From positions 1 to 34,680 of the IMG/VR virus record IMGVR_UViG_3300008107_000427: DNA of 34,680 nucleotides; one strand, given 5' to 3'. The stretch comes from a virus. Of the stretch, positions 20,476-30,579 are shown in pieces (the stretch's first letter is position 1; each line of letters opens with the position of its first letter). The notes below the pieces were generated by a model that was not told the origin of the DNA, did no database searches, and saw nothing but the letters and a program-made list of their open reading frames with translations. The translations under genes were made by a program, and so were the position numbers.

Positions 20476-21786
20476 TTACTTGGTGGCGGTGAGGGGACGC
20501 TTCCAGGCTTCGACCTGCCGTGCTCGGTAAGAAGACACAGGGTCGTCGTTGGAGCGACCGGCTCCCTTCAGCGCGTCGCGCAGGGCGGCGGTGCTGTCGG
20601 AACGGGCGTCGGCGGCGTCCTCTTTGGTTTCACCGGTTTCACCGGCTTCACCGTCGTCGGAGCCTTCGGCTTCTTCACCGTCGCCCTCTTCACCTTCGGC
20701 GTCAGCGCGGGCGGCAAGGATGCCGTCCACAACACCACAGATGTAGGAGGGGTCGGCGTCTTCGCGAGGAGCGGCGCCGGTCAGGTTTTCGAAGGCCTGG
20801 TTGTACAGAGTGGCGTCGTCAATGCCGTCGAACTTGAAGTCCTCGGTAAAGGCGGGGGCCAACTTCTGAAGGGTGGAGAGACGAGCGGCGACCAGTTGGT
20901 CGAGCTCGGCTGTGTCGATACGAGCAGAACCGGATTCGAGCTCGGTGATGCGCTCTTCGAGAGCATCAGCACGGCCTTCGGCGGCTTCCTTCTCGTAGGC
21001 GATGGAGTCGAAGTCTGCGTTGAGGGAATCGAGCTTGGAAGAAAGCTCGTCACGCTCGGTGGTCACAGCTTTGAGTTGGCGCTCCATGTCCCGTGCGAAG
21101 GACTGGACCGCCGTTGCTGCTTCCGCGGGCAGATCGATCTCCAGGCCGTCAAGTTTGACGGTGGCCATAACGGGAGATGCAGGTTGACTGGGCTGGAGCG
21201 CCGACCCATAGGTGTGGGTCAGTTCCTGGTCGTAGGCCACAGCGTCAGCTGCGTCCATACGGTCGAGGAGCAGTCGTACCTCCGGGCCAGCCCGGCCACG
21301 GGGCACGATGGCGATGTGATTCACCCGGATGTTGCGCTGGATGCCGGAGTACTCCTCGCCCTCGGGGGTGAGCCCAGGGGTGGGGTCGAAATCGACCTTG
21401 TAGCCGGCAGACACCTCGGTGGCGTCCTTGCGCTTGATCTTCTCGATGGCGTCCGCGTCGGTGACGACGAGGGCGACTTCCACGAAACCGTCGTTGTAAC
21501 GGACCTGACTACCTGAGTAGCCGACCTGATACGTCTTGGTGTTGGAAGAGTCGAGCAGAACGGGTGGATGCCCCCATGTCGCGGGTTTCATCCCGAACGT
21601 GGAAAGCGAATCGGGAGCACTGACCTCCTCGGGGGGCCTGTATTCCCGGACTTGGGAGCCATCAGCACGCCGGTAGAGCTGGGTGCCCGTACGCGCAGCA
21701 CGACACCACACGCGAAGGTAACCCTCCTCGGTGGTTTCGCTACCCGTGATCGGGGCGAAGTCGTACCTGGATACTGATGTTTCCAT
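20476..21786 (-). CDS. DUF2213 capsid maturation protease fused to a scaffold, 436 aa
   Basis: Residues 1-185 match the DUF2213 prohead protease: TWGHPPVLLD (H73), ATEVSAGYKVDF (S126) and IRVNHIAIVPRGRAGPE (H157), with the conserved YDFAPITGS.T.EGYLRV opening. A scaffold part follows from about 207 (MATVKLDGLEIDLPAEA). It contains a coiled coil (about 225-290), a Gly/Pro region, and a very acidic tail (GEEGDGEEAEGSDDGE) at about 370-410. The protease cuts scaffold and capsid ends before packaging. The start is ATG 21786; GTG 21792, with AAGG eight bases ahead, is equally possible. No separate scaffold gene is seen, so the fusion supplies that function. Confidence 0.85.
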   Translation of the reverse strand: METSVSRYDFAPITGSETTEEGYLRVWCRAARTGTQLYRRADGSQVREYRPPEEVSAPDSLSTFGMKPATWGHPPVLLDSSNTKTYQVGYSGSQVRYNDGFVEVALVVTDADAIEKIKRKDATEVSAGYKVDFDPTPGLTPEGEEYSGIQRNIRVNHIAIVPRGRAGPEVRLLLDRMDAADAVAYDQELTHTYGSALQPSQPASPVMATVKLDGLEIDLPAEAATAVQSFARDMERQLKAVTTERDELSSKLDSLNADFDSIAYEKEAAEGRADALEERITELESGSARIDTAELDQLVAARLSTLQKLAPAFTEDFKFDGIDDATLYNQAFENLTGAAPREDADPSYICGVVDGILAARADAEGEEGDGEEAEGSDDGEAGETGETKEDAADARSDSTAALRDALKGAGRSNDDPVSSYRARQVEAWKRPLTATK

Positions 21787-21848
21787 GCGCACAGATTACG
21801 CCTTTTGAGGAGTCGCGATAGCCTTAAACGCAAAGCGGATAAAGGGGA

Positions 21849-22064
21849 GTGGCAATCCACCGGCAATTGACTATGTGCCGCAGGATGCGCGCCTTACGGG
21901 AATACACCGGTCACACCCAGGCAGAGGTGGCAGAACGACTGGGGATCAGTCAGGCGGCGTACTCGAGACTGGAAAAGGGTGAAATAGAGATATCGCTTTC
22001 GAAGCTAATAGTATTAAGCGAGATCTACTCAGTGCCGTTGCACGAAATGCTGCAGGGCGTCTAG
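21849..22064 (+). CDS. XRE-family (Cro/CI-like) helix-turn-helix regulator, 71 aa
   Basis: The helix-turn-helix TQAEVAERLGISQAAYSRLE (about 25-44) is complete, followed by KGEIEISLSKLIVLSEIYSV as the third to fifth helices of a Xre domain. It is on the plus strand, against the whole operon, and divergent from the DUF2213 gene across a gap of about 60 bases. The frame opens at GTG 21849, just after an AAAGGGGA purine run; an ATG at 21873 is a possible later start. The base composition is richer in A/T than the surroundings. Its stop (TAG) overlaps the stop of the minus-strand gene below in the palindrome CTAG. It may repress or activate the divergent genes; no operator is evident. Confidence 0.8.
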   Translation: MAIHRQLTMCRRMRALREYTGHTQAEVAERLGISQAAYSRLEKGEIEISLSKLIVLSEIYSVPLHEMLQGV

Positions 22065-22273: not shown

Positions 22274-22564
22274 TTAGCGGCGGCTGGTCTTACCCGAGCA
22301 CTTCCACTTAGCCCGCGAGAGGCAAAGCGGGGTGTTGCGTTCGGCTCCGGAGCAGTCATAGCCTTCGGATTTCATGTCGCCGAAGGACCGAGCGCAGTAG
22401 CGGTCGCCTTTGGGGGTGCCGGGGGCGATGCGGTAGCCCTTGGCGCCGTAGCGGACCTTGTTGGGTCGGCCAGTCTCGGGGTTGGTGACGGTCTTCGTGT
22501 ACTTCTTGCCGTCCTCGGTGTCCTTCTGGGTACGAGGTTTCGTAATGCTGGATGTAGGCGTCAC
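22274..22564 (-). CDS. Cys-rich KGYRIAPGT-type small protein, 96 aa
   Basis: The central part KTVTNPETGRPNKVRYGAKG, then YRIAPGTPKGDRYCARSFG, and the Cys-containing end NTPLCLSRAKWKCSGK match a small protein family I recognise from cyanophages (KGY.IAPGT.KGD.YCARS, then N.P..LSR..WKC.G). I propose GTG 22564 as the start; an earlier in-frame GTG (22633) lies inside the upstream gene. Four Cys suggest a zinc or structural site. About 209 bases overlap the 3' part of the upstream gene in another frame. Whether it is made separately or by a +1 frameshift from that gene is unclear. Function unknown. Confidence 0.65.
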   Translation of the reverse strand: MTPTSSITKPRTQKDTEDGKKYTKTVTNPETGRPNKVRYGAKGYRIAPGTPKGDRYCARSFGDMKSEGYDCSGAERNTPLCLSRAKWKCSGKTSRR

Positions 22565-23204
22565 GCCGCCCGAAACCCTCGATACGGCGTCGACTCGGCT
22601 GGCCGGTCCGTGGGTCGAGCGGTAGGCGAACACGCTCGGGGGTCAAGTTGCTCTGTGGGAGCTGGGCTTGAGTTCCACGCGGCAGGCGCTTCTGATCGGG
22701 TTTGCGATAGCCGGGTTCGTAACGGCGGCGGGCGGCCTCGGTACGGAGGCGGAGCTCACGAAGGGTGGTCTTGGTGGCCATACCCGCGGCTTCACCAGCA
22801 CTCGCCATGGTGTTGCCAATTTGGCCCAGGCGTCGAATCTCCTCTCGGGCGGTCTGGGCGATTGCGCCCTCGGTCTGGCGTACCGCGGTGGCGGTGTTCT
22901 CCCGCATGCGCTGGGTCTTGGACTTGCGCGGAGGTGCGGCGGCGAGGAGACCGCGGGGTGTCAGACCCGGAAGGCGCGGAGGGCTGGAGGGCGGCGCATC
23001 ACTACCGCTGGAACCAGTGCTGCCCCTACGCCGGGACAATGCAACAGCGCCTGCCCCGAGGGCGGCCACACCCAGACCAGCGGCGATGGCCTTGCGCGTC
23101 GGAAAGGATCCCCGTTGGCGGCAGGTTTTTCCCGCTGCGATGTGGCTCTGTCCGCACGGGCGGCCATTGGCGTCGAGGCGGAGCGAGGCAGGAGTGAGCG
23201 TCAT
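22356..23204 (-). CDS. Head-region Cys-motif protein, 282 aa frame
   Basis: Residues 3-31 hold LTPASLRLDANGRPCGQSHI and then AAGKTCRQRG, one copy of the motif C-G-x3-I-x5-C (C17, C28) shared with two other head-region proteins here. A hydrophobic Ala/Gly segment follows (AIAAGLGVAALGAGAVALS, about 39-57), then a Pro/Ser linker, a basic helix (about 100-170) and PRTGQPSRRRIEGFGRRDAY. From about residue 215 the frame reads like the out-of-frame version of the Cys-rich small protein (Arg/His/Pro-rich), so the natural end is uncertain. The predicted role is a minor virion or scaffold-associated protein; there is no named family. Confidence 0.6.
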   Translation of the reverse strand: MTLTPASLRLDANGRPCGQSHIAAGKTCRQRGSFPTRKAIAAGLGVAALGAGAVALSRRRGSTGSSGSDAPPSSPPRLPGLTPRGLLAAAPPRKSKTQRMRENTATAVRQTEGAIAQTAREEIRRLGQIGNTMASAGEAAGMATKTTLRELRLRTEAARRRYEPGYRKPDQKRLPRGTQAQLPQSNLTPERVRLPLDPRTGQPSRRRIEGFGRRDAYIQHYETSYPEGHRGRQEVHEDRHQPRDWPTQQGPLRRQGLPHRPRHPQRRPLLRSVLRRHEIRRL

Positions 23205-23207
23205 GGC

Positions 23208-24257
23208 TCAGAGGGCCAGCTGGTCGAGATCGGTTGAGAAGCCGGCGGCGTAGACGGAGTCGCGACGACCGCGCAGCGGGCGGTCGTAGGCACTGGAGGC
23301 CCAACCGGTTCCGCTAGGCGTCGAGCGCATTCCAGTTGCACGTTGGTAGGCGCGGCGGGCGTTGCGGCTGACACCAGCGGCACCACCGGCGCGCTTGAAG
23401 CCGGCGTATGCACCAATGGCAGCTTCCTGGCCTACGCCGATGGCAGCCTGGCGGCCGGCACTCTTCAGGAACTCCTTCGAGAGTTCTTTTTTGCCCATAC
23501 GACCGGCCTTACTTGCAGCCGCCACCTGAGTCGCGGCGGCGCCGAGCTGCATGTTGCGGTAGCCGCGGCTGACTTCCCCGAGGTTGCCACGCATGGCGCC
23601 TTCAGAAAGCTGCATCAAGCCGGCACCGAGGGCGAACCCGCCGCCGACACGGGCGGCGAGCTCACCGGCGACCTTGATCTTGTTACCAACTCCTTTGGTG
23701 GAACCCCGGGCTCTGTTGAATTGAACAGCTGCAGTAGGATTGTTCATCAAATTTCTGAACTCCTTCTTTGCTTCTGCTTTCGGATCGACCTTCTGAGCGG
23801 CTCCCTTTGTGCACTTCTCGCCCTCGGAGATGGAACCGTTGCCACACTTGAGGTCGGCGCGGACAGAGGAAGGAGTGAGGTTCATAGCTGTATCGAGACG
23901 GGCTCGGATGTAGGCGCGGTTGCGGCCTTGGATGCCGAGGTCGCAAGCGGCGAGGTACTCCTGAGGGGTCAACGCGTCGTTGCGATCCATCTTCTTGCCG
24001 TAGCCACCGCAGTTGCCGTCGCAGGAGGCTTTGCCTTTGCGCACTCCGCAGCTGCAGCCTTCACCATCCATGGGGGCTTTGGTGTTCTTGGCACCTTTGG
24101 CGCTGCGCTTGCGATTGGTCTTACCTGCGGGCATGTCGTCGGGCTCGGCACCTTCGCGGAGCTCTTCTTGCTCGGTTTCAGCCATCTCGTGCTTCTTGCC
24201 CTCGCCCGGCTCCATTTCTATGGACTTGGACTTCTGGGACATGCTGGGCTTGGCCAT
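23208..24257 (-). CDS. Head-region Cys-motif protein, 349 aa
   Basis: Domains in order: an acidic/basic N-terminus (1-60); a Cys cluster CSCGVRKGKASCDGNCGG (C68, C70, C79, C83); LTPQEYLAACDLGIQGRNRA then YIRARLDTAMNLTP (about 96-129); and a copy of C-G-x3-I-x5-C (KCGNGSISEGEKCTKG, C138 and C149). A Gly/Ala-rich amphipathic or membrane-like region follows (VGGGFALGAGLMQLSEGAM, about 200-225) with AMRGNLGEVSRGYRN, closely echoed in the 937-residue protein. The end is Arg/Ala-rich with RRAYQR and SVYAAGFSTDLDQLAL. It is one of three neighbouring proteins with the same motif. It is probably a virion component; function unknown. Confidence 0.65.
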   Translation of the reverse strand: MAKPSMSQKSKSIEMEPGEGKKHEMAETEQEELREGAEPDDMPAGKTNRKRSAKGAKNTKAPMDGEGCSCGVRKGKASCDGNCGGYGKKMDRNDALTPQEYLAACDLGIQGRNRAYIRARLDTAMNLTPSSVRADLKCGNGSISEGEKCTKGAAQKVDPKAEAKKEFRNLMNNPTAAVQFNRARGSTKGVGNKIKVAGELAARVGGGFALGAGLMQLSEGAMRGNLGEVSRGYRNMQLGAAATQVAAASKAGRMGKKELSKEFLKSAGRQAAIGVGQEAAIGAYAGFKRAGGAAGVSRNARRAYQRATGMRSTPSGTGWASSAYDRPLRGRRDSVYAAGFSTDLDQLAL

Positions 24258-24345
24258 AGCAAGGGTGGCCGAGATGGCGTAGTCGGATAGGCCAGATTAC
24301 CGCTGATGGAGCTTTCTTACGGTGACGGGTAGTGGAGTACCTCCC

Positions 24346-24525
24346 GTGGACATCGGAAAGTTCCTAGGACATGAAGCTGAGCAAGCTGCTGGCCCTATTA
24401 CACAGCGTGTTGACACAGTAATTAAGCGTCTTGATGAGATTCAGGCTCAGCTTGATGAGCTGAATCGTCGTTTGGATGCCTTGGGTCCGCTGTCCCGCTT
24501 TCTGGGACGCTTCACCCGGCGCTGA
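24346..24525 (+). CDS. Small coiled-coil protein on the opposite strand, 59 aa
   Basis: GTG 24346 has GGAG eight bases upstream; an earlier GTG (24322) lacks one. The product has a regular heptad coiled coil (RVDTVIKRLDEIQAQLDEL, then NRRLDALG) and a basic end (FLGRFTRR). Codons are richer in T and A than the neighbours. It lies on the plus strand in the gap before the 349-residue gene, and its last 14 bases overlap the 3' end of the Mu gpF-like gene. This is a moron-like position. The function could be dimerisation or DNA binding; no family is recognised. Confidence 0.6.
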   Translation: MDIGKFLGHEAEQAAGPITQRVDTVIKRLDEIQAQLDELNRRLDALGPLSRFLGRFTRR

Positions 24526-25396
24526 GGGGGACGGGGGCGAGCTGCTCGAAGACGGCAGCGCGGTTGAGGCTTGCGAGCTCGGTGGTGCCGGTGCGCTGGA
24601 GGGCGGCTGCCACCTCTTGCTTATGCAGATCGCGCATAGCTGCGTAATCGGGGTCCATCTGGGCGATCTCAGGGTCCCAGGGGGCGACGTAGCAGCGGCA
24701 TCGAGGGTGGAGTGGCACCTTGATTTCGCTGCGTCTGTAGAGCTCCCCGGCCCGCGGGGCGCAGATGGGGCAAGCTCGGTCATCAGCAGTCGCGTAGTAC
24801 ATGACGACGTCGATGCCCTGGGCTGCGTAGTACGTGTTGGACGCGCTGTTGTAGGCCCGTAAGGACTCCGTGCGCACGATCACGTCGGCACGGGACTTCA
24901 CCACACCTAGGCGGAGTCGCATGTCCTGCACCATGGCGTCGGTGGGACGGCCTTCGGCGATCCCTTGGGCGACAGTGGCTGCAGCGGTCTCGGCAAACTT
25001 CTCGCCGTGACGGCGCAGATAGCCCTTGGCTTGACTTGCAGCCGCCACCGTGGCCTCCAAGGGAATGGAGACATCGATGCGCGGCGTGTCTGGGCGCATC
25101 TGGGTGGTCAACTTCTGGCTGACGACCAAGCCGAGACCAGAGGCGTCACGCACGAGATTCCGGAATAACCGGTCGTATGCGTCCACCTTGTCGGGCCGAA
25201 TAGCTGGGATCAGTTGCCGGAACTCCTGCAGCAAGGCGAGGTTGCGCTGGGTCGGATCGGAGTAGCCGGCCTTCATGTGGATCCGGGTCCGACGGACCAG
25301 GCGGTTGAAGGCCTGGTCGAGGACACGGTTCAGCAGACGCAGGGTGCCGTCCTCGGTGGTGCGGAGGGTGCGGTTGTACTGCTCAACTACGTCCAC
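24512..25396 (-). CDS. Mu gpF-like minor head morphogenesis protein, 294 aa
   Basis: The C-terminal half carries the family signature: VIVRTESLRAYNSASNTYYA, then DRACPICAPRAGELY (C-x2-C) and LHPRCRCYVAPWD (H-P-x-C-R-C), which together form a zinc site. The N-terminal 150 residues are helical. Proteins of this family (Mu gpF, SPP1 gp7) bind the portal and are ejected or support DNA delivery. It starts at GTG 25396 with GGAG nearby and overlaps the upstream gene by 14 bases. Gene order (portal, large protein, this) is standard apart from the inserted 937-residue gene. Confidence 0.9.
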   Translation of the reverse strand: MDVVEQYNRTLRTTEDGTLRLLNRVLDQAFNRLVRRTRIHMKAGYSDPTQRNLALLQEFRQLIPAIRPDKVDAYDRLFRNLVRDASGLGLVVSQKLTTQMRPDTPRIDVSIPLEATVAAASQAKGYLRRHGEKFAETAAATVAQGIAEGRPTDAMVQDMRLRLGVVKSRADVIVRTESLRAYNSASNTYYAAQGIDVVMYYATADDRACPICAPRAGELYRRSEIKVPLHPRCRCYVAPWDPEIAQMDPDYAAMRDLHKQEVAAALQRTGTTELASLNRAAVFEQLAPVPLSAG

Positions 25397-28196
25397 GTTC
25401 CATCTCCACCAGGGAGCGCTGGATGAGGAGGTAGTCCGTCATGGCTTGTGCCCGCACCGCGGGGCCGTAGGTCTTAATGCGGGACCAAAGCTCGTCAGGG
25501 CTGATCAAGCCACCGCCGGCACGCTCCGCATCAAGACGGGAACCCTCGAAGTACTGGGAGTATTGCTTGGCGAGGTCTTTGCCTACCGGAGAGCTGAACT
25601 CGCGTTGGCCTTGAAGGAAGGTGACGAACTCGGTTGCGGTGTAGCTACGGCCTTGAGCGCGACCTTGATAGATGGCTTCGCGCCCTTCTCGACGTTGTCC
25701 ACGGGAGACGCCGAGGTCAACTACGGCGCGTGTGGCGCGACGGAAACGCTGGAGCTGTTCGGACTCGGGGACGCCGTAAGCAATGCCGTTAGCTAGGGCT
25801 TCACAGTTGTCCCGGGTCAGAGAGAACCTGTAGTCAGTACCGGCGATGCGGATCGCGCGTTTTACAACTTCTTCGTTAGTGAAGGGAGCACCCGTCCTGG
25901 CTTTGAACTTGGGATCAGGAGCCTTGATCAAAGGTGTCATCAGGGCCTGTGAGGTTTTCAACCCAGGCTTAGTGGCGCCGATCTCGGTAACGTCTGTCCA
26001 GCTGAAGCGGGACTTGTTCGTGTTGGCGATGACGGCCCGAACTATGCCGTCTTTACCTTCTCCCAGATAGATGCCGAAGTGCGCAGCTGGGTCTCTTTCA
26101 TTGCGGAAATAGACCACGTCGCCCGGTTTGAGGCCGGATTTCTTGGTGTAGTAGTAGCCCATGGCTTCGCTGGCACTTTTGGTGCTGGCTTCTTGCTTCA
26201 TGGATTTGACGAGGTCTTTGATGCCCGGGCTCGGAGTGAGTGGGGACTTCGTCGGATCGCTCAGGGTCTTGAGGTTGTAAGCAACGGTGCCAGCAACAGC
26301 CAGGGCGACTGCGCCTCCGGCGACAGCAGCGACGGTTGCGGCCTTGCGCTTCTGGTCGTTCTCGGAAGTTGCAGCACCTCGTCCCTTCTGGCACTCATGC
26401 GCCTTGGGGATGTGGGAGGCGCCACAGGGCTTTCCCAAGTGGCTGCTCTCCTTGAAGTCGGCGCGGGCTGCGAGGTAGGTGGCAGTGCGGACGAGCTCGG
26501 GGGAGAAGTCGTCCTCATCGCCGCGGCGGCGTTTGACTTCGCGGCGTGCGGCTTGGAGCGTCATGCCCGGGTTTTCGCGCATCAGGGCGTAGACCGCTTC
26601 ACCCTCGCTCATGGGGCGAGTTCGCGCGGTTACGGCTGTTTTTGCTGGTACGGCCCTCGTAAAGCCCTCCCGTTCAAGGATTTGGAACGCTTCCCCCTTG
26701 TTGACTGTGCGTCCTTCCAACTCGGAGGCTGCCGCTACAGCGAGGCGGTCGGTAACGGCGTACATCCGGCGGGGACCCGTGCCGGTTACCTCGGAGTGGT
26801 AGTCCCGCAGGACAAGCTCGGCATGCGCTGGGCCTTGGACTCGTTGGCCAGGACGTGTCAGTCCCAGTAGGTACTGAGAGCGGGCCATGGTCCCGTTGAG
26901 CATTGTCTCTTCTGCCCCCGTCTCACGCAGAGCCTTTGTCATGCGGGCGCTTTGCGTCACATTGGAAATGACGGATCCCTGGGATTTGTAAAACTCATCG
27001 AAACCTTTGTAGGTAGCCCGATAAAGAGCATCCGTGCGCCCTTTAGGGCTGAGGCTCAGGGTGTCCTCAAGGTGTTTCGTCAGTACGCCGCGAACAGCTA
27101 GAGAGCCCTGTCCCTTTGGCAAGGTGGAATTGACAACGCCTTGAATGAAGGCACGTTGGTCCTTCTCGGCTATGACGCGGCCATTGCGTGTATTCGTAAT
27201 CGCAAAGCCTTGCTGCTGGGCAAGATCAAGAAGAGAGCTCTTGTAATCAGTGAGTTGGCGCTGAACCGCATCCTTGATGGACTTTGAAGTTAGCGTGTCA
27301 TCTCCCTGAAGTTTGAATTGCCGCGCCAGGAATTCATCGGTCGCAGGGCGTGCGAAGACGTTGCCCTCCTCTTTAACGCCAAGACCAACACCACTCTCGT
27401 GCTTAGTTGTGTTGAAAAAGACTTGTTGGTGTTCCTTATTCCAGGCGTCAAAACTGGATGTGGCACCGCGATGGCTATCGTTGACAGCCTGCAGAGCTAC
27501 GACAAGCTTTGACCTAGCGTCGGTGTCTGCCTGGGCGGGCGTAGTCCGCGTTAGTTGGCCTGTCAGTACAGATTCGACAGGGTTGGCCTGCCTTTGGAGT
27601 TGGGCTTCAATGCCGGATTGGACTTGAGCTCGCACGCGGGCTCGATTCGCTCCGATGATCGGAGTCGCATCAAGTACACGACTCAGGCCGAGCCGGACCG
27701 AGTTGTTGATGTTGGCGCCTACACCTTCTCGGTAGCCAAAGGTGTTGCTCTTCATCAGGATCGAGTGGATCCCGAGGCCGCCGGTAACGACGGCTAGGCC
27801 AATGCCGATGGTACGGGTGCGATCTTCGAGTTTCTTCTGGAGCTCTTTCTTCTGCTGTAGGTTGCCAGGGGCGGCTTTGACGGTGCCGCGGATGATGGCG
27901 CGTTTGCCGCCCTCGACCTCGGAGAAATTGCCCCGGACGATGCCACGTGCGATACGGGAGGCGCCGCGCTGGATGTTCGCGAGGCCCCCGAGGGGGTCGG
28001 TTTGGGTAGCGCGGAGGTGGGGGTCAGTGCCCTGACCCTTAAGGCGGCAGTCCCAGCTCGGGGGAATGCAGCGGTTGCCGCAGCGGACGTTGGGCGGGTT
28101 GCACTGGACGTTGCGCGTGGTCTTGCGCGCGTCGAGTCGGGCTTTGGCGGCCAGATAGGCCGCAGTCCTAAAGCCCTCGGGAGTGGTGTTGTTCAT
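25383..28196 (-). CDS. Large virion protein with two Cys motifs and an LRAT-like domain, 937 aa
   Basis: It starts one base into the portal stop (TGATG). Residues 5-54 hold TPEGFRTAAYLAAKARLDAR and CGNRCIPPSWDCRLKG (C39, C50). Next come RGNFSEVEGGKRAIIRG and a hydrophobic helix (IGIGLAVVTGGLGIHSILM, about 100). A long helical middle follows. A second copy, SPELVRTATYLAARADFKES and KPCGASHIPKAHECQKG (C591, C602), is followed by a membrane-like segment (AVAGGAVALAVAGTVAY). Residues about 690-805 resemble an LRAT domain: GLKPGDVVYF, HFGIYLGEG (H706) and RDNCEALANGIAYG (C798). These would be the catalytic His and Cys of an acyltransferase or lipid hydrolase. The second LRAT His is not visible. 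The last 130 residues are basic and helical. It could be an injected, membrane-active protein. Confidence 0.75.
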   Translation of the reverse strand: MNNTTPEGFRTAAYLAAKARLDARKTTRNVQCNPPNVRCGNRCIPPSWDCRLKGQGTDPHLRATQTDPLGGLANIQRGASRIARGIVRGNFSEVEGGKRAIIRGTVKAAPGNLQQKKELQKKLEDRTRTIGIGLAVVTGGLGIHSILMKSNTFGYREGVGANINNSVRLGLSRVLDATPIIGANRARVRAQVQSGIEAQLQRQANPVESVLTGQLTRTTPAQADTDARSKLVVALQAVNDSHRGATSSFDAWNKEHQQVFFNTTKHESGVGLGVKEEGNVFARPATDEFLARQFKLQGDDTLTSKSIKDAVQRQLTDYKSSLLDLAQQQGFAITNTRNGRVIAEKDQRAFIQGVVNSTLPKGQGSLAVRGVLTKHLEDTLSLSPKGRTDALYRATYKGFDEFYKSQGSVISNVTQSARMTKALRETGAEETMLNGTMARSQYLLGLTRPGQRVQGPAHAELVLRDYHSEVTGTGPRRMYAVTDRLAVAAASELEGRTVNKGEAFQILEREGFTRAVPAKTAVTARTRPMSEGEAVYALMRENPGMTLQAARREVKRRRGDEDDFSPELVRTATYLAARADFKESSHLGKPCGASHIPKAHECQKGRGAATSENDQKRKAATVAAVAGGAVALAVAGTVAYNLKTLSDPTKSPLTPSPGIKDLVKSMKQEASTKSASEAMGYYYTKKSGLKPGDVVYFRNERDPAAHFGIYLGEGKDGIVRAVIANTNKSRFSWTDVTEIGATKPGLKTSQALMTPLIKAPDPKFKARTGAPFTNEEVVKRAIRIAGTDYRFSLTRDNCEALANGIAYGVPESEQLQRFRRATRAVVDLGVSRGQRREGREAIYQGRAQGRSYTATEFVTFLQGQREFSSPVGKDLAKQYSQYFEGSRLDAERAGGGLISPDELWSRIKTYGPAVRAQAMTDYLLIQRSLVEMERGRS

Positions 28197-30028
28197 CAGT
28201 ACGTCTCCCAGGCGGCTCGGAGTGCTTCGACTTCGCCCTCGGGTACAGGGGAGAGCCCTGCCACAGTCTGCCGAGGGAATAAAGCGTTGATGCCGCTCTT
28301 CGCTGCGCGCAAGGAGGCGAAGCCCGTGGCATAAGGCCCGTCAATCAAGGCGCCGTCGACGACAAAGCGCGCTCGGTAGAGCTTGTAGGCCTTGGTGCGG
28401 TTGGGACCGAAGACCATCAGGGATGCGCCCTCGGTGGCATCGGTGCGTTGTCCATCTGGGCCTACCAGATAGCCGGCTTTGATGCCGCTGAGCTCGTGCG
28501 AAACAGCGATCCGCAGGCCGTGGGCCTCGTAGTGATCGAACAGGGAGGCGTCGCCACGGCCAGGCGGGAGGATTGCAGTTTCTTCCTCATCGTCTTCCTC
28601 TTCTTCCGCCGGAGGCAGACCGGGCTGCGGTGCCGTTATCGCAGACAGTTGAGCCTCGTAGCCCGCCATCTGCGATTGGAAGGAAGCGTCGGTCTGGGCT
28701 ACCAACTGCTCTGTGACCGCCTCGTTGAGGGTGGTGTCGATGCTGTACTCGGTACCGCCGAAGCGGGCTTCGCGCACCTCGAGGGGGTTCAGGACACCCA
28801 GGTTGATGTACTGCGCATCTACCTGAGCCATCTGCAGGCGGAGACCTGCTTTCTCTTCGTCGGTCTGGGTGAAGACACTCGGGAAGCGCACACTCCAGGA
28901 TTCCGGAACACGCCCTCGGGTCGGGCCTTCGCGGCTGGCCAGGATGTAGGTGAAGACCTCGGTCAGAGGGGTTCGGCAGTACACCTCCTGCCACTGCTCG
29001 ACCAACGAAGCCCAGACACGTTCCTCGAAGCGGCCTTCCTTACCAAGACCACCAGGGGAGTCGCCCATCAGGATGGATGCAGGCCAACCCGTGGCTGCTT
29101 GGAGATCCTTGATGAAGGGCTCGGTGGCGCTCGCCATGTTGGACAGTGCGCGGTTGAGGAACTGAAGGTCTTCCTCCTGGTCGACGACCATGCCGCCGTA
29201 GACGGAGCGGCTGAGGTTGTTGGCCTCCAGGCGCTTACGCAGATCCGTCTCGTTTCCGGAAGCAATCCGCTGGAACAGGCCGGGGATCTTGTGGACAAAC
29301 AGGTCCGAGTCCGTGGTCATGGTCTCGAGACCCGACATCGTGGACTCGTAGCGCTTGTAGGCCTCCCAGATCAGCTGGAGAACCGACTGGCCCCAGCCGG
29401 TGTTGCGGACACGGACGTTCCAGGGCAGATACAAGCCGTCGAAGCGCGCGACCCGGGTGTTGTGGATGCGGACGTTGGTGTACGAGCCTGTCTGGTCGGG
29501 GGTGATCCTCTGGCTGGTGGTGATCCGGTAGTGCGACGGCTTCGAGTAGTCCGTGATCGAGAAGTCCTCGGGGATCAGCTCGTGCCGGGACAGGGGGACG
29601 AAGCCGCGGACCGCGCGGATGCGCTGAAGATCGACCGGTTCCTCCTCGGGGAGACCGTCGTCGATCAGCAGGACTAGGCCGGCACCGCCGTACAGGCGCT
29701 GCAGTTTGACGACCTCGGAGAGTGCGAAGTGAAACTGTGTGGCCTGGAGGAAGGTCTCAAAGCTGCTGATGGTGTCGTTCGCATCAGGCTCGGTGTCGCT
29801 GCCCAGGACGATGGTGGTGCGGTGGCGCAGGATCTCGTCAGCAATGGCATCGACGTAACGACGAGGCACGCCATGGCTATAGAGGGCCTCGAGCTCCGCT
29901 TCTGAGAGGAAGGCTTTTGCTGCTACAGATGTTGCTGTTGTCTTGTCTCGAGATGACAGGCCCATTCCTGTCAACACGTTGACTAAAGCACCATCATTCC
30001 GGAAGGTATCGGTAGTGTTTTGCGTCAC
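28196..30028 (-). CDS. Portal protein (DUF1073 type) with C-terminal extension, 610 aa
   Basis: The portal forms the dodecameric ring for DNA entry. Recognisable DUF1073 phrases are LVNVLTGMGLSSRDKTTATS, VPRRYVDAIADEILRHRT, RLYGGAGLVLLIDDG, RVARFDGLYLPWNVRVRNTG and ASILMGDSPGGLGKEGRFEE. A strongly acidic linker (PPAEEEEDDEEETAILPP, about 490) is followed by an extra 100-residue C-terminal region (GIKAGYLVGPDGQRTDATEG, FRRQTVAG-like end) not usual for portals. The start is uncertain: GTG 30028 (MTQNTTDTF) is my choice; TTG 30070 is possible; neither has a good ribosome site. Upstream lies a tandem-repeat block. Confidence 0.88.
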   Translation of the reverse strand: MTQNTTDTFRNDGALVNVLTGMGLSSRDKTTATSVAAKAFLSEAELEALYSHGVPRRYVDAIADEILRHRTTIVLGSDTEPDANDTISSFETFLQATQFHFALSEVVKLQRLYGGAGLVLLIDDGLPEEEPVDLQRIRAVRGFVPLSRHELIPEDFSITDYSKPSHYRITTSQRITPDQTGSYTNVRIHNTRVARFDGLYLPWNVRVRNTGWGQSVLQLIWEAYKRYESTMSGLETMTTDSDLFVHKIPGLFQRIASGNETDLRKRLEANNLSRSVYGGMVVDQEEDLQFLNRALSNMASATEPFIKDLQAATGWPASILMGDSPGGLGKEGRFEERVWASLVEQWQEVYCRTPLTEVFTYILASREGPTRGRVPESWSVRFPSVFTQTDEEKAGLRLQMAQVDAQYINLGVLNPLEVREARFGGTEYSIDTTLNEAVTEQLVAQTDASFQSQMAGYEAQLSAITAPQPGLPPAEEEEDDEEETAILPPGRGDASLFDHYEAHGLRIAVSHELSGIKAGYLVGPDGQRTDATEGASLMVFGPNRTKAYKLYRARFVVDGALIDGPYATGFASLRAAKSGINALFPRQTVAGLSPVPEGEVEALRAAWETY

Positions 30029-30114
30029 GACAGCGCAAGACGCGGCGGGATATGCAAAATGTATCGCCAAATTGCAAACTTGCGCATAGGGCGCGAATGC
30101 GAGTTAGCGGTATA

Positions 30115-30198: not shown

Positions 30199-30270
30199 CG
30201 GTTTTCTCTGTTGCAGACTGCGACCGGGACTTTGCTCTGGTCCGTAGGCTGGGAAAGCTGCCACGCCGGC

Positions 30271-30579
30271 ATGTTGGACCATCACATCGATGGCTCCCTC
30301 CTCTGCTCAAAACGGTGCGCCAAGCTGCGATTTCGGCAGGGGATCCTCGACTCCTGGGGGTCCCGTTGTGCCTATTGCGGTAAGCCAGCCGGAACCTTGG
30401 ATCATGTCCGTCCTCGGTGCAAAGGGGGTCACACCGTTGCCCACAACTTGATTGCTGCTTGCGCTGAATGCAATCGAGGTAAGGGGTCAGAGGTTGATTG
30501 GCGAGCTTGGTTCCGGAGTCAGCCCTCGTGGTCACCGGATCGAGAAGCCAGTATCTGGGACTGGCTCAACCCGGCATAG
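30271..30579 (+). CDS. HNH endonuclease (free-standing, homing type), 102 aa
   Basis: The HNH/beta-beta-alpha-metal motif is complete: RCAYCGKPAGTLDHVRPRCK, GGHTVAHNLIAACAECNRGK and then GS. The two CxxC pairs bind Zn; the DH and the later N-L and N are the catalytic parts. The upstream RQGILDSWG is the helix found in cyanophage HNH proteins. ATG 30271 gives 102 residues; a TTG at 30211 would add 20. It is the only plus-strand enzyme gene, and lies between the small-gene block and the portal, a typical place for a free-standing homing nuclease. It cuts DNA and may help packaging or spread itself. Confidence 0.85.
   Translation: MLDHHIDGSLLCSKRCAKLRFRQGILDSWGSRCAYCGKPAGTLDHVRPRCKGGHTVAHNLIAACAECNRGKGSEVDWRAWFRSQPSWSPDREASIWDWLNPA

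Follow-up and report, generated by a model that had tools for sequence, protein, structure and literature searches.

At the head locus of a virus known from an IMG/VR record (IMGVR_UViG_3300008107_000427, positions 1 to 34,680; this whole stretch of 34,680 bases is called the window below), three neighbouring reading frames encoded among portal and head genes share a short cysteine motif, C-G-x3-I-x5-C. What is such a motif doing there, four times over? The four copies listed in the original prediction are all present: two in a 937-residue protein (p937; C39/C50 and C591/C602), one in a 349-residue protein (p349; C138/C149) and one in a 282-residue frame (p282; C17/C28). A six-frame search of the window gave no further match to C-G-x3-I-x5-C, and when the three proteins were shuffled at least one match arose in 9 of 20,000 trials and two matches in none. 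The segments TPEGFR, SPELVR, TPSSVR and TPASLR upstream of the copies and the hydrophobic stretches downstream were likewise found in the sequence, as was RGN-x2-EV-x2-G, common to p937 (residues 88-97) and p349 (223-232); at the loci of the census described below, this last motif occurs in 25 of 15,987 reading frames, and all 25 bear the module. We consider it rather probable that the motif is the core of a module that serves as a joint or anchor, heading the cassettes of virion effectors akin to 'polyvalent' proteins, which would be packaged, expelled with the DNA and active on the host.

A search for further copies, proposed along with these observations as a check, clearly found many. IMG/VR was scanned with two DNA patterns and once at the protein level, and copies were counted by means of a profile of the core. 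The count is 488 module copies, which occupy 343 distinct reading frames on 148 stretches; their profile scores are cleanly separated from those of chance matches. The DNA pattern for C-G-x2-C-I-P-K-x2-K-C identified 31 stretches, with the motif in frame in all of them and more copies nearby in nearly all, and the pattern for C-G-x2-H-I-P-x2-H-x-C, which has a histidine at the position called C3 below, identified 117. The 22 IMG/VR relatives of p937 carry extra copies within the same protein and in adjoining frames, and of 17 whole records 16 contain copies, up to 13 in a record, grouped at one site or a few. Because many stretches are near-duplicates, statistics were computed on 146 non-redundant modules. 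The core is not covered by any Pfam, PHROG or NCBIfam model in the proteins that were scanned, a PDB profile search with the four-cysteine module gave no match, and the carriers in the deposited phage records examined are annotated 'hypothetical protein'. The description of a duplicated module without a named family, in proteins encoded beside portal and head genes, thus holds.

The cysteines of the module follow a strict rule. The core has the layout C2-G-x2-[C3]-I-x5-C4, with C3 four residues after C2 and an optional C1 5-6 residues before C2, and the region from nine residues before C2 to C4 contains either two cysteines (C2 and C4) or four (C1-C4), never three. C1 and C3 are both present in 44 of the 146 modules, both absent in 102 and never found one without the other; in a first set, the counts for both, neither and mixed were 38, 41 and 0 (Fisher p about 2e-23, a value inflated by relatedness). 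As neither search pattern selected on C1, this coupling is not a retrieval artefact. Both forms occur within one protein in 75 of 108 multi-copy proteins, a rough tree computed without C1 and with C3 masked requires about eight switches between them, and just one clear module without C4 (contig L002) was seen among profile matches of at least 11 bits. The four window copies share their spacing, as claimed, but are not uniform in form: module 1 of p937 has four cysteines and the other three copies have two. A disulfide or a metal knuckle had been suggested for the cysteine pair; since the paired loss of C1 and C3 fits bonds C1-C3 and C2-C4, the all-or-none rule favours disulfides over zinc, and one disulfide (C2-C4), or two where C1-C3 is added, probably holds the module together. 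The identical spacing C-x5-C-G-x2-C-I-x5-C also follows apparent signal peptides, as judged by eye, in exported proteins encoded outside phage head operons: gp23 of Pseudoalteromonas phage C5a (L249:8965-9390), an Enterobacter mori plasmid protein (L251:1429-1995) and a Bacteroidota SNase protein (L254). The tblastn E-values of these proteins are weak (8e-3 to 7) and do not imply common descent, and no Pfam or NCBIfam model lies over their motif; because the same spacing follows predicted signal peptides, it suggests that the module fold suits oxidising compartments.

The core is flanked by two further elements. An [RK]-x-D leader lies at most 26 residues upstream in 123 of the 146 modules, as against 21% at random points, and the hydrophobic segment downstream has a median Kyte-Doolittle maximum of 1.5, compared with 0.47 for stretches taken at random from these proteins. 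Internal copies are spaced 98-982 residues apart. In an AlphaFold model of the module (78 module sequences), the leader is a helix and C2 and C3 lie in a beta hairpin; block-mean pLDDT in the core is about 69-80. A model of the whole of p937 (mean pLDDT 59) has a helical middle region. Structure prediction, also proposed at the outset, thus yields a modest-confidence hairpin for the four-cysteine copy, while the C-terminal part of the whole-protein model, including the two-cysteine module 2, is not resolved. Foldseek searches with the p937 and module models gave no significant match; the module model had weak matches to CD320, with E above 4. The closest Pfam match is LDL-receptor class A (PF00057), whose C...C...CIPxxWxC part module 1 resembles, at 15.6 bits against a cut-off of 24.1; the module has four cysteines and LDLa six, and the likeness is most likely convergent, to be treated as a lead only.

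What follows the module varies widely. Clustering of the 523 downstream segments yields 52 groups that show no significant similarity to one another, and Pfam matches, several of them below curated cut-offs, include LRAT/NlpC-P60, kinases of the APH, Kdo, ABC1, RIO and Pkinase types, lipase-like alpha/beta hydrolases, HipA-like and PI3/4-kinase-like domains, DnaJ, GNAT, InPase, ART-PolyVal, PolyA polymerase and LPD1; weak zincin-like (ATLF) matches below cut-off were seen in two relatives. The LRAT match of p937 scores 35.8 bits (gathering cut-off 24.3) and keeps the LRAT/NlpC-P60 signature, the histidine of H[FW]G (H706) and the cysteine of NCE (C798), a pair present in 42 module proteins; lipids or peptidoglycan are possible substrates of this domain. 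Among relatives, homology is interrupted at the module. Among 66 relatives, homology to p937 ends at residues 585-660, that is, in module 2 and its tail, in 36, runs through in 26 and ends elsewhere in 4, and with all pairs pooled, 71% of the interior ends of alignments lie 0-60 residues after C2, compared with 18% for random points, although the relatives are partly redundant contigs and the pairwise counts are not independent. One relative (L019) is 79% identical to p937 in the C-terminal unit (window residues 588-937) and 45% in the remainder, with an extra unit in between whose border is at the module; in another (L007) the additional unit is C-terminal. Because the module heads interchangeable enzyme cassettes, its carriers look like delivered effectors and not like plain structural proteins, which extends the earlier reading of them.

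The genes concerned keep company with head genes. Wherever a stretch has recognisable portal, MuF and DUF2213 genes of the window type together, the module genes are placed around MuF, with the portal on one side and the protease on the other. In CL131 and a Nostoc linckia prophage they are found after the capsid gene and before the tape measure or in the reverse order, and Mu-like prophages of cyanobacteria have one carrier, which follows the Mu portal. Larger records have the module fused to portal, to MuF or to a Mu-like protease; thus one protein (L230:2138-5671, minus strand) comprises a portal domain followed by module, InPase and LPD1, and MuF and module occur together in another (L230:452-1882).

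Two known classes of phage proteins resemble this arrangement. Polyvalent proteins of phages and conjugative elements (Iyer et al. 2017, PMC5512222) are likewise large, multi-domain and encoded with portal and terminase late genes. Disparate domains also meet in one polypeptide here (helical and LRAT in p937; kinase, LRAT, hydrolase, InPase, ART and PolyA_pol in various combinations in relatives), and the portal-terminase late-gene setting is seen in the gene order of the window and its relatives. ART-PolyVal, InPase and LPD1, domains of the published set, are present in module-bearing relatives (published domains were seen in L226, L228 and L230), and kinases and GNATs as domain types and the fusion of InPase to portal are also shared with such relatives; the window's own LRAT domain, in p937, is not named in the main text of that paper. 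The words 'cysteine' and 'disulfide' are absent from the same main text, whereas a cysteine module with a hydrophobic segment heads each unit here. MuF polymorphic toxins (Jamet et al. 2017, PMC5576092) also join a constant part to a variable effector, have their gene beside the portal and are hypothesised to be delivered from the head. Their constant part is the MuF domain; here it is the cysteine module, and no N-terminal MuF (PF04233) match was found in p937, p349 or p282, MuF being a separate, module-free gene of 294 residues in the window.

Since co-location with portal and MuF, effector-like multi-domain content and cassette swapping match polyvalent proteins and MuF toxins, we infer packaging and delivery. 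The R-x-D leader, the cysteine core and, usually, a Gly/Ala-rich hydrophobic segment would precede and join exchangeable, often enzymatic domains; the carriers, mainly of cyanophages and encoded with portal, MuF and head-protease genes, would be packaged in the head, expelled together with the DNA and act on the host. Module and hydrophobic segment may anchor or thread the cassette at the membrane or envelope, or in the virion, and the second cassette of p937 would deliver a candidate LRAT/NlpC-like thiol enzyme. Particles of CL131 have been analysed by liquid chromatography-tandem mass spectrometry (PMC6293099), with the protein table placed in the supplement of that paper.

Other explanations account for part of these data. 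Leader and module might be a capsid-targeting or procapsid-binding tag, comparable to the capsid targeting sequence of T4, a short N-terminal peptide that the prohead protease removes. Such a tag would bind scaffold, portal or protease and load cargo into the prohead, might be cleaved there and would have no further role in delivery. The same R-x-D leader at N-terminal copies and internal headers fits such a tag, and the genes adjoin portal, MuF and protease; yet it leaves the hydrophobic segment and the repeated internal copies unexplained, and the four-cysteine spacing after signal peptides belongs to exported proteins and not to capsid cargo. We regard the tag as possible but rather doubtful. 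A zinc knuckle, keeping the cargo on the packaged genome through contacts with nucleic acid or protein, would account for four cysteines within 18-19 residues in the 44 four-cysteine modules, for the modelled beta hairpin and for a weak, sub-threshold Zn_clus match of one copy. However, the majority form retains just C2 and C4 with no constant further ligand (the C3 position holds H, G, Y, S, A or F), which makes a zinc site less likely and disfavours zinc as the sole explanation, and C1 and C3 come and go together as the partners of a bond would; we consider the knuckle unlikely.

It is similarly improbable that the carriers are ordinary minor structural proteins, stabilised in head or connector by the module, with incidental enzymatic matches. 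Their position in the head operon and the helical middle region of p937, modelled without a fold match, are consistent with this, but 52 downstream clusters, many distinct enzyme families and swaps at the module are untypical of structural proteins, and Synechococcus phage S-CBS4, the nearest isolate by capsid protein (52% identity), has no module in a whole-record search, which indicates that the module is accessory. Breaks in homology cluster at the module as they would if it were a recombination joint or linker kept by frequent cassette exchange and devoid of a function of its own, but C2, C4, G and I are strictly conserved, and this and the pairwise cysteine rule imply selection on the protein, and we consider a bare joint very unlikely. 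Several points nevertheless weigh against the joint or anchor of delivered effectors that we prefer: packaging, disulfides, membrane role, delivery and enzyme activity are each inferred, S-CBS4 does without the module, some carriers (224-residue JAB-like frames) have no strong hydrophobic segment, many have no recognisable enzymatic domain, and the homology breaks were counted on partly redundant relatives.

In the window, the modules are distributed as follows, all on the minus strand. The p937 gene (25383..28196), identified from its open reading frame, its relatives and the LRAT match (E 1.2e-8), encodes two tandem cassettes: module 1, a hydrophobic segment and a helical domain, then module 2, a hydrophobic segment and the LRAT/NlpC-like domain. 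The leader of module 1, TPEGFRTAAYLAAKARLD (residues 5-22; 28131..28184), overlaps a helix predicted at residues 7-25, and is followed by the four-cysteine core C32-x6-C39-G-x2-C43-I-P-x4-C50 (28047..28103), modelled as a hairpin of residues 37-39 and 42-44, and by the Gly-rich hydrophobic segment IGIGLAVVTGGLGIHSILM (130-148; 27753..27809). Module 2 has the leader SPELVRTATYLAARAD (565-580; 26457..26504) and the two-cysteine core CGASHIPKAHEC (591-602; 26391..26426), the swap point among relatives; after it come an Ala/Gly-rich hydrophobic segment (619-640; 26277..26342), a trend seen across 71 modules, and the LRAT/NlpC-P60-like thiol enzyme domain (689-809; 25770..26132).

In p349 (23208..24257), identified from its reading frame and relatives, the module is an internal cassette head: the two-cysteine core CGNGSISEGEKC (138-149; 23811..23846) is preceded by MNLTPSSVRADLK and followed by a Gly/Ala-rich hydrophobic stretch (199-222; 23592..23663). 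This copy begins with MNLTPSSVRADLKCG, which resembles the N-terminus of stand-alone carriers (MxLTPxxxRxDLKCG) and points to a trace of gene fusion. Upstream of the module, p349 also has a second cysteine cluster, CSC-x8-C-x3-C (24009-24056, minus strand), which looks metal-type; a similar C-x-C-rich stretch is present in a relative (L049). The p282 frame (22356..23204) does carry an N-terminal two-cysteine copy, module 4, CGQSHIAAGKTC (17-28; 23121..23156), with the hydrophobic segment AIAAGLGVAALGAGAVALS after it (39-57; 23034..23090), but it is not a whole protein. Its first 221 residues are 75-94% identical to relatives, which then run into a domain that sits in another frame of the window, within an overlapping open reading frame (22274..22633, minus strand), so the last 60 or so residues of p282 are out of frame. 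That reading frame is 90% identical to the end of the L014 relative, the frame break lying near 22540 relative to L013 and L014, and its C-terminal domain, in frame with module 4 in relatives, is common to Synechococcus phages such as S-TIM5.

The module region is bordered by the portal gene (28196..30070, minus strand; Pfam Phage_portal_3, 5.2e-54) and by that of a DUF2213 head maturation protease/scaffold (20476..21792, minus strand; Pfam DUF2213, 8.4e-42; PHROG 530, head maturation protease). The module-free MuF-like minor head protein, assigned by Pfam PF04233 (7e-13) and gene order, lies in between (24512..25396, minus strand), and terminase and major capsid protein genes are also among the neighbours (Pfam, PHROG). 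Three frames run on the opposite strand to the head genes: a small XRE-like helix-turn-helix frame beside the DUF2213 protease (21849-22064, plus), an HNH-like frame (CAYCGKPAGTLDHVRPRCKGG...) upstream of the portal gene (30211-30579, plus) and a coiled-coil-like frame of 67 residues between the MuF and p349 genes (24322-24525, plus). An opposite-strand transcriptional regulator also adjoins DUF2213 in S-CBS4 (gp021) and CL131 (gp037).

Beyond IMG/VR, the module was found in an isolated Aphanizomenon phage, in Nostoc prophages and in Mu-like cyanobacterial prophages, and tblastn of phage records found it mainly in CL131. The hosts of the IMG/VR contigs are taken to be cyanobacteria from isolates, prophages and the capsid relative, and not contig by contig. 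Three of 386 cyanobacterial genomes have a match at E<=0.001, and both of the two viewed in context are prophages, on which grounds an origin from host proteins was rejected. A tblastn match to Stenotrophomonas A1432 was dismissed as noise, and pattern matches in Bacteroidales, Thermoflexaceae and a Pacearchaeota genome, which show no phage-type module, were taken as chance. One cyanobacterial genome (G366) contains five close frames with the four-cysteine motif on both strands (L235:1022-8983), with variable C-termini (GNAT, InPase, M90-like), possibly a prophage effector locus. The C-terminal domain of CL131 gp044 (L024:10645-11325) is JAB-like by eye, and human-gut phage homologues of this protein match only downstream of the module.

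Virion effectors as a class are not new; what appears undescribed in the open-licence literature searched, where the written motif was not found, is the module together with the rule for its cysteine pairs and its wide employment by cyanophages, although a description elsewhere is possible. More speculatively, and with considerable doubt, cysteine module, leader and hydrophobic segment could constitute a device dedicated to delivery. As a portable signal it would load whichever enzyme is attached into the virion and take it across or into the envelope of the host, its oxidised state denoting the virion and its reduced state the host, and cyanophages would use it to shuffle up to a dozen effectors. 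Polyvalent proteins are reported to be scarce in cyanobacteria (PMC5512222). The module provides a sequence handle for candidate virion-carried effectors in cyanophages, where almost none have been recognised; it predicts packaged proteins and cassette borders, and its predicted paired disulfides offer a simple biochemical test. If our reading is true, cyanobacteria of blooms and of the picoplankton would be taken over beginning with the injection of a diverse set of proteins: kinases, thiol enzymes, hydrolases and ADP-ribosyltransferases.

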